A DNA stretch of 64,000 nucleotides, taken from Caldicellulosiruptor saccharolyticus DSM 8903 (GTDB lineage: Bacteria; Bacillota; Thermoanaerobacteria; Caldicellulosiruptorales; Caldicellulosiruptoraceae). Made by a program: the position numbers and the translations under genes. The notes under the pieces were generated by a model, which was not told the origin of the DNA, did no database searches, and saw only the letters and a program-made list of their open reading frames with translations. Below, piece after piece: positions 60,355-61,066 of the stretch (position 1 is its first letter; each line of letters begins with the position of its first letter). The DNA lies in the NCBI RefSeq assembly GCF_000016545.1, contig NC_009437.1, positions 2,878,501 to 2,942,500 of the forward strand, read 5' to 3'.

Positions 60355-60405
60355 CCCCGAAAGGGGTGCCCTTTTGGAGGGCAGTCCATTGTATTTGCAA
60401 TGGAC
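60355..60405. repeat. Three contiguous perfect hairpins
   Basis: CCCC-GAAA-GGGG (60355-60366), TGCCCT-ttttg-AGGGCA (60367-60383) and GTCCATTG-tatttg-CAATGGAC (60384-60405) follow one another with no spacer. They lie between tRNA-Trp and a candidate sRNA promoter. Their role is unknown. Confidence 0.7.
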
Positions 60406-60423
60406 TTGTGATATAATCACTAT

Positions 60424-60520
60424 ATAGTCTGGAGTTACACCTTGAGTTATACCAACTTCTGTGAGTCTGGCAGTGATTTTAGTGGGGTGGGAGAAAGGTT
60501 TTCTCCTTTCTCCCTTTTAA
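60424..60520 (+). ncRNA. Candidate small RNA
   Basis: A promoter-like TTGTAT (60389-60394), 17-bp spacer and TATAAT (60412-60417) points to a start near 60424. A strong hairpin with a T-run (60489-60518) would end a transcript of about 95 nt. It has no ribosome-binding site or useful open frame. It overlaps the end of the minus-strand peptide gene at 60517-60594 by a few bases. Confidence 0.4.
60489..60518 (+). terminator. Strong terminator hairpin
   Basis: GGGAGAAAGG (60489-60498) pairs perfectly with CCTTTCTCCC (60505-60514), followed by TTTT; an outer GGGGT/ACCCC pairing extends it. Confidence 0.75.
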
Positions 60521-60594
60521 ATACCCCAATATGCGAACGCATTTTTGCCAAACTCACAGCTTCTTGACATACCCCCCTTCAAAAAATTTGACAT
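60517..60594 (-). CDS. Small peptide 1 of a repeated MSNFL module
   Basis: 25 codons beginning MSNFLKGGMSRSCEF and ending YWGI. The start, the preceding AGATG-type ribosome-binding site and about 45 nt of leader are shared with the two modules at 60842-60922 and 60943-61022. An internal ATG follows GGGGGG and could also initiate. One Cys. No known family. Confidence 0.4.
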   Translation of the reverse strand: MSNFLKGGMSRSCEFGKNAFAYWGI

Positions 60595-60650
60595 TCTTTA
60601 TAAACATCTAAAAAGTATATTTCTGGCAATAGATTTGATTATATTTTATC
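60577..60650 (-). repeat. Expression-module repeat 1
   Basis: On the minus strand the repeat runs from a TATAAT-like box through about 45 nt of leader and an AGRTG ribosome-binding site to the start codon and the codons for MSNFL. It is about 75-80% similar by eye to repeats 2 and 3. Confidence 0.6.
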
Positions 60651-60681
60651 ACAACCAAATGGATGTTTCAACAGGGAATTA

Positions 60682-60786
60682 CTAAAATTCTGAATCATCT
60701 TCACCTTTCAAAATTGCCGTGATTTTGAACAGTGCCAAAGGAATATACCATATGAGAAACACAACAACCAATGGATGCTTCAGCAT
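60682..60786 (-). CDS. 34-residue single-span membrane peptide
   Basis: From ATG 60786 behind AAGGAG (spacing 9) to 60682. Residues about 5-24 (PLVVVFLIWYIPLALFKITA) form one membrane helix; the tail KGEDDSEF is acidic. The same frame is open upstream to a GTG at 60864 in repeat module 2, so a 60-residue form starting MSNFLKRGKGRLL is also possible. That longer form would be translated through the hairpin at 60816-60841. Small hydrophobic peptides of this kind include type I toxins, but no antitoxin is proven here. Confidence 0.5.
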   Translation of the reverse strand: MLKHPLVVVFLIWYIPLALFKITAILKGEDDSEF

Positions 60787-60815
60787 GTTTGCTTTCTCCT
60801 TTTGCGGTTTACAAA

Positions 60816-60841
60816 AAAAGGCAGGTAACAACCTGCCTTTT
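60816..60841 (-). terminator. Hairpin between repeat module 2 and the membrane-peptide gene
   Basis: AAAAGGCAGGT pairs with ACCTGCCTTTT and is followed on the minus strand by a T-run, about 30 nt before the AAGGAG of the 34-residue gene. It could end short transcripts from module 2 or act as an attenuator. Confidence 0.65.
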
Positions 60842-60922
60842 CCCCTCTTCAAAAAATTTGACACTCTGTATTAACACCTAAAAGATACATTTATGCCAAT
60901 TGATTCTGAATATATTATACCA
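60842..60922 (-). repeat. Expression-module repeat 2
   Basis: Second copy of the module, with TATAAT near 60919, AGGTG, then GTG (60864) as start codon and the codons for MSNFLK. The open frame runs on to the membrane peptide at 60682. Confidence 0.6.
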
Positions 60923-60959
60923 CTGTTGTTTGAAATTGCAATAACAAAAAATTTGACAT
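60915..60959 (-). CDS. Small peptide 3 of the MSNFL module
   Basis: 14 codons beginning MSNFLLLQF and stopping at 60915, with AGGTG 10 nt before the ATG. Conserved start but different ending, so it could be a leader peptide or a decayed copy. Confidence 0.3.
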   Translation of the reverse strand: MSNFLLLQFQTTVV

Positions 60960-61022
60960 TCTATATAAACACCTAAAATATACACTAATGGGAAGAAGTA
61001 TAATTTGATTTTAGCACACCAA
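60943..61022 (-). repeat. Expression-module repeat 3
   Basis: Third copy of the module (TAAAAT-like box, leader, AGGTG, ATG at 60959). It lies downstream of the 89-residue gene at 61067-61336. Confidence 0.6.
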
Positions 61023-61066
61023 TTTTGAATGTACAACCCTTGAATTTAGCTTTATACTATTCTTTT

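Follow-up and report, generated by a model that had tools for sequence, protein, structure and literature searches.

The three repeated modules in the window, a 64,000-nt stretch (bases 2878501-2942500) of a 2.97 Mb single-contig genome (labelled G000), are members of a real, genus-specific family of promoter-leader elements that carries no Rfam annotation, and the anatomy of these elements is well supported by sequence comparison. Our preferred mechanism, to which we assign a probability of roughly 45%, is the production of short terminated transcripts, with read-through control of a 34-codon ORF in the window. Comparison establishes the repeat family itself, the promoter-like pairs, the terminators and the selection acting on the 34-codon ORF. 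Judging by gene content, we take the genus to be Caldicellulosiruptor.

The modules are three direct copies on the minus strand (60945-60995, 60850-60900 and 60580-60630), and each starts a different short peptide with MSNFL, as the first-pass annotation had described: an ATG at 60959-60957 opens a frame of 14 residues (MSNFLLLQFQTTVV), a GTG at 60864-60862 one of 60 residues and an ATG at 60594-60592 one of 25 residues. Each copy consists of a promoter-like pair, a leader, the ATG or GTG and the S-N-F-L codons, after which the frames diverge. The repeat search recovers the three copies at 61-72% identity to the reference over 93 nt, with a best-conserved part of about 51 nt. The -10-like box noticed earlier is in each case part of a full promoter-like pair, as located by promoter scoring. 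The upstream-most copy, copy 3, has TGTACA, a 16-nt spacer and TG plus TAAAAT (61008-61035), followed by its 51-nt leader element (60945-60995; G000:2939446-2939494), which lies in tandem 95 nt ahead of that of copy 2. Its 14-codon ORF (60915-60959) extends in the alignment across the promoter of copy 2 (TTGCAA, 16 nt, TG plus TATAAT; 60914-60941), and the tail of the peptide is simply that promoter translated as codons. The leader element of copy 2 (60850-60900; G000:2939351-2939400) is followed by an intrinsic terminator hairpin (GGCAGGT-TGTT-ACCTGCC, then T7; 60820-60837) that is present in 4/4 loci of this type, and then by the 34-codon ORF MLKHPLVVVFLIWYIPLALFKITAILKGEDDSEF (60682-60786). 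Copy 1 has TTGAAA, a 17-nt spacer and TG plus TAAAAT (60643-60671), a leader element at 60580-60630 (G000:2939081-2939130) and a 25-codon ORF (60517-60594) whose length varies in corresponding copies elsewhere. The proposed ribosome-binding site fares less well: AGGTG is there, but the claim is weak because 10 nt lie between it and the start codon and the 25-residue copy has AGATG instead; across the family it is intact in 44 of 53 copies and altered in 9.

A genome-wide search and a comparison with related species had been proposed as checks on the modules, and both bear them out. A 78-nt query matched 10 of 21 genomes, every one within the genus. A pattern search allowing up to 3 mismatches gave 12 matches in the window's own genome and was positive in 10 of the 12 genus genomes; the reversed-pattern control gave none in any of the 12, so the matches are not due to chance. 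A sequence-only model, built from 42 of 53 copies and with matches counted at E up to 0.001, reported 56 matches in 10 of the 12 genus genomes (4 of them partial or low-scoring) and none in 25 other genomes of the class. The 53-copy set was collected from the window and 20 fetched regions with up to 5 mismatches; a 54th copy lies in locus L050, and the two last model matches are partial. Thirteen copies have the next copy 95-98 nt downstream, always in direct orientation. Weaker model matches (E 0.01-0.07) were set aside as chance-like on partial inspection, with one possible exception (L051). This site (G000:473841-473892, weakly also in G004 and G008; E 0.02-0.06) has a mid-element insertion, perhaps at corresponding sites in the three genomes, and may be a chance match or a distant relative.

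Rfam 15 covariance models at the gathering score gave no match to the module in the window or in six further loci, the best weak match having an E of 0.2, far below the cut-off. All Rfam matches in the window lie away from the modules and comprise three tRNAs and one pan motif (RF01749, 4791-4901 on the minus strand, slightly over the cut-off). Literature searches limited to open-licence papers on the genus listed nothing on the family, as judged by titles and opening abstract text. A viral or plasmid origin was considered and rejected: the module has no match in viral contig, phage or plasmid collections, and an 89-residue neighbour has no viral relative. The transposase region of the window had no match among plasmids, and the single match of the 34-residue peptide among phages is at chance level. 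In the genome_contigs search, a collection that may omit genomes near the window, one exact match was found, in Crenothrix, about as expected from a hand estimate of chance.

A TTGACA/TATAAT-like pair scoring at least 9.5 is found upstream of 51 of the 53 copies, compared with 5.9% of 5,000 segments drawn at random from the loci that contain the copies and 9.4% of shuffles. The two exceptions (L001 4350 and L010 7390) are copies in which the upstream sequence differs. In the 51 promoter-bearing copies the end of the -10 box is 47-51 nt from the start codon. Most alignment columns between about -34 and +14 relative to that codon are near-invariant, while the promoter spacers vary; the conserved stretch would therefore correspond to roughly the first 50 nt of the RNA, given the inferred start point. 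The pair has the features of a sigma-A-type promoter, and the modules probably switch on short RNAs. RNAalifold returned an empty structure, with no consensus fold, for the element (the column-shuffled control had a mean of 0.0 and is uninformative), and single-sequence folds contained no conserved antiterminator or alternative fold. Two further features were considered and discarded by eye: an opposite-strand promoter built on the conserved TTGACA hexamer, which lacks a usable -10 box at 16-18 nt, and a second frame starting within AGGTG, which in the alignment runs into TAG where the variable base is T.

In every one of the 53 copies the first base of the start codon is A or G (ATG in 24, GTG in 28, GCG in 1), and the alignment gives moderate support to an ancestral 7-codon leader ORF, M-S-N/K-F-L-x-E/K-stop. 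Codon changes were counted by parsimony on the 23 copies with the 7-codon form, one of which has an altered stop, using a tree from which these codons were excluded. Codons 1, 2 and 5 underwent 2, 1 and 5 changes, all of them residue-preserving, a count that is biased towards conserved residues because the rule by which the 23 copies were picked already demands S, N/K, F/I/N, L and E/K/W. At codon 3, 6 of 9 changes alter the residue, and codons 4, 6 and 7 underwent 3, 6 and 5 changes that alter it 3, 6 and 4 times, making 13 of 14 non-silent. Codon 5 also encodes Phe or Gln in 8 of the 53 aligned copies, and alternation of A and G is seen outside the mini-ORF too. The synonymous-only changes thus point to translation of the first codons of the mini-ORF, without amounting to proof. 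In the window and in G004 the stop of the 7-codon ORF has been lost and the leader ORF extends through the terminator. In G004 (the L009 8391 region) its last codons overlap the start codon of the 34-codon ORF (ATGTTAA), and in the window the two are fused in frame. Translation across the terminator could alter read-through in these two cases.

The 14-, 25- and 60-residue frames singled out by the first-pass annotation exist as described, but the MSNFL peptides themselves mostly lack conservation. In the five loci with a copy of the 25-residue type the peptide has 25 (window), 25 (G004), 5 (the second locus of the same genome), 9 and 9 residues. The 60-codon frame (60682-60864), which runs from the MSNFL start of copy 2, is found in only one of four loci, the window; in the other three the frame stops after MSNFLQK (two loci) or after 27 codons (G004). 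The 60-residue peptide is thus a local fusion through the terminator, and its last 34 residues have their own start codon and an SD-like AAAAGGAG. The suggestion that the modules encode signalling peptides finds no support, because neither the 14- nor the 25-residue tail shows conservation; the shorter frame crosses the next promoter.

What is conserved is the 34-codon ORF, which occurs at the module in four loci, with the terminator preceding it in 4/4. Codon comparison indicates that it is under purifying selection: dN is lower than dS in 6 of 6 pairs, with dN/dS of 0.18-0.37 in the three pairs that include the window; the L002-L009 pair has a value of about 0.5, and the L002-L011 and L009-L011 pairs have values of about 0.75-0.77. 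Judged from its sequence by reading alone, the peptide is hydrophobic and of a putative single-span membrane type, with a charged tail; it has no Pfam match. A relative in G001 occurs without any module. This relative (MLRQLLEHPLVVVFVLWMVPLLVLKIIQTLRGEDWEF, G001:2094625-2094714, L025/L048) lies amid a run of small genes, possibly a mobile element.

The 54 copies were sorted by what follows them. A CCACG-type terminator hairpin comes after 21 of them (class A); a further copy is next in 13 cases (T), a dispersed repeat in 6 (K), a hairpin of the window copy 1 type in 5 (C) and the 34-codon ORF in 4 (B); 5 are unsorted, of which L012 9360 resembles class K by eye. The dispersed repeat of class K (TTTAACACCAACAAATGTTCGC...) is joined to the element at L001 4350, L003 11993, L008 6461, L013 10799, L014 12394 and L020 7863, and read in three frames it looks like a decayed repeat or coding sequence. 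It also lies behind a Transposase_31-like frame that has no element (L019).

For the 40 non-tandem copies among the 53, the first ORF of 80 or more residues on the same strand, searched over 800 nt, was labelled by our own motif rules as an SLH-like exported protein in 13 cases, an XRE regulator in 4 and a Transposase_31 protein in 3, with other labels occurring once or twice. Among the examples scanned with Pfam, XRE (HTH_3), Peptidase_M78, Transposase_31 and PKD were supported and SLH fell below the cut-off; the PIN-like protein scanned had no match. A cassette-like order recurs in L013, L014, L015 and L003, with a module, an XRE regulator, an M78 peptidase, a PIN-like gene and often another module, and continues with an SLH-like surface protein and a giant PKD protein; in L014 and L015 near-identical modules stand on both sides of the regulator cassette. 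Eighteen regions upstream of SLH-like paralogues without a pattern match were also examined, and the gene start could be parsed in 8 and not in 10. A weight-matrix scan of the 18 regions found a decayed element in L040 only, and the model a 25-nt partial match in L044. In 8/8 parsed regions the surface gene is preceded, as judged by eye, by a terminator hairpin and by a box reading TGGTATAAC or TGATATAAC (TATAAC box), so both seem to belong to the surface gene itself. Since surface-protein genes of the type found behind most class A copies keep their terminator and TATAAC box when no module is present, the module need not control them. Outside the window, units stand ahead of operons for surface proteins and regulators, and these operons seem to have promoters of their own.

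On the opposite strand of the window, a promoter-like pair at 60401-60428 (+), within a block strongly conserved in 5 loci, faces a hairpin (GGGAGAAAGG..CCTTTCTCCC, 60489-60514, to which no strand is assigned). The stem is present in 5/5 loci and terminator-like, with a T-run on the plus strand. The conserved promoter-like block and the hairpin with its T-run make the RNA proposed earlier at 60424-60520 plausible as a candidate convergent transcript; the promoter scan by itself adds little, with 6 promoter-like sites compared with 3.9 expected in shuffles. A series of short hairpins (CCCCGAAAGGGG, GCCCTTTTGGAGGGC and AGTCCATTG..CAATGGACT) occupies 60356-60408 (+), between a tRNA-Trp gene and the modules. 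The first-pass annotation had raised the possibility of a small toxin with a nearby antisense RNA, which in its present form would be a type I toxin-antitoxin-like locus, the 34-residue hydrophobic peptide acting as toxin and being restrained by the convergent or antisense RNA. The conserved, small membrane-type peptide fits this reading, as does the opposite-strand block with its promoter-like pair and terminator-like hairpin. However, the candidate (60401-60514) lies outside the 34-codon ORF (60682-60786), there is no antisense overlap with the putative toxin mRNA, and the RNA would meet only the tail of the copy 1 transcript; the relative in G001 that lacks a module is a further difficulty. 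We regard such a locus as highly unlikely.

Under the preferred mechanism, each module would be a short transcription unit peculiar to the genus, with a sigma-A-type promoter, then about 50 nt of constant leader with a mini-ORF, and then a tail, in many cases closed by an intrinsic terminator. The constant, unstructured leader would form the 5′ end of the RNA and carry the 7-codon mini-ORF (M-S-N/K-F-L-x-E/K). Window copies 3 and 2 would act as tandem promoters for one leader, whose transcript would stop at the terminator hairpin starting 27 nt past the start codon of copy 2, unless the polymerase reads through; read-through would then yield an mRNA for the 34-residue single-span membrane peptide. 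The terminator hairpin lies just 33 nt ahead of the start codon of the 34-codon ORF, which leaves no room for another promoter. Copy 1 would start a separate short RNA, converging with the candidate RNA from the other strand. We infer that the units are transcribed, that read-through is under regulation and that sensing or binding falls to the constant leader. The earlier idea of leader peptides controlling downstream expression fits best at the middle copy, where a promoter, leader, terminator and the 34-codon ORF occur in order, the terminators being clear and translation putative. Genome-wide 5′-end RNA mapping has been published for one species of the genus, C. bescii (PMC8579813).

The absence of a consensus fold and the short terminated units would also suit a multi-copy family of trans-acting small RNAs, in which the constant single-stranded 5′ part acts on a target by pairing or titration, the tails and terminators serve only to end and stabilise the RNA and the nearby genes are bystanders. 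Copies have been retained where the downstream surface gene has shrunk to 63 codons (G001 and G006), surface genes seem to carry their own promoter, and the unit at L008 6307, made up of promoter, element and terminator, has no gene to itself ahead of the following copy. However, a search for extended complementary sites (up to 3 mismatches, both strands) returned the module copies and one chance-like site in G004, and the start, Ser and Leu codons have undergone only synonymous changes, which suggests that they are translated; we consider a trans-acting family possible but rather doubtful. A dispersed repeat of neutral or selfish character, multiplied as islands with surface-protein and toxin-antitoxin genes were duplicated and retaining its promoters and MSNFL codons only because the copies are recent, would explain why copies lie in plastic islands (with Transposase_31, PIN-like and Fic/Doc-like genes), why copies at the same locus resemble one another and why 2 of the 12 genus genomes have no module. 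Such an origin is distinctly unlikely, given that the element is near-invariant while promoter spacers and flanks have diverged, that promoter geometry is kept in 51/53 copies and that decayed copies are rare (4/56). The modules are a dispersed repeat nonetheless, but the earlier proviso that they might be untranscribed remnants of an insertion-sequence end finds no clear support, the promoter-like pairs being kept. The neighbours of the copies vary (surface proteins, XRE, Transposase_31, PIN-like), with no constant transposase partner.

The constant 5′ element, the downstream terminators and the very long operons for exported proteins also brought to mind processive antitermination of the LoaP/RfaH type, with the module as the responsible element at the head of long operons. 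LoaP leaders need a hairpin, and the module has none of that type; the long operons, moreover, seem to have promoters beyond the terminator. A search for a NusG paralogue besides the housekeeping protein (PF02357) gave one match in each of the 12 genomes, with or without modules. The lack of a second NusG gene argues against a LoaP-type system, which was rejected as extremely unlikely.

A broader reading of the short transcription units is that they form a genus-wide control handle: one constant 50-nt RNA start, behind single or tandem promoters, would head variable surface-protein, regulator and toxin-like cassettes, and either a shared factor or the ribosome translating the 7-codon ORF would read it, so that many unlinked cassettes are governed together. 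We consider this unlikely as it stands. The family is of interest as one absent from Rfam, highly conserved within a single genus and tied to the variable loci of that genus, which comprise regulator or toxin-like cassettes and genes for giant PKD-type exported proteins. Should a factor read the constant leader, a surface-variation regulon would come to light in probable extreme thermophiles; if the leader acts in trans, it would represent a new small-RNA family.

Several known systems resemble the modules in part. In leader-peptide attenuators of Gram-positive bacteria, of the erm type and similar, a promoter is followed by a very short ORF, a terminator and a gene, the order seen at the middle copy of the window. 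In contrast to these, the modules have no conserved alternative fold that we could find, the leader element itself is the most conserved part, and many copies precede genes with an apparent promoter of their own. Listeria LhrC and Vibrio Qrr are multi-copy small RNAs with a shared domain; the modules are like them in that each genome contains several short, nearly identical units in which an unstructured constant part is joined to a variable one, but differ in that the constant part bears a start codon and mini-ORF and in that tandem pairs 95-98 nt apart are frequent. The 34-residue hydrophobic peptide, with its charged tail and a candidate opposite-strand RNA nearby, recalls type I toxin-antitoxin peptides, although here the antisense RNA would miss the peptide ORF.
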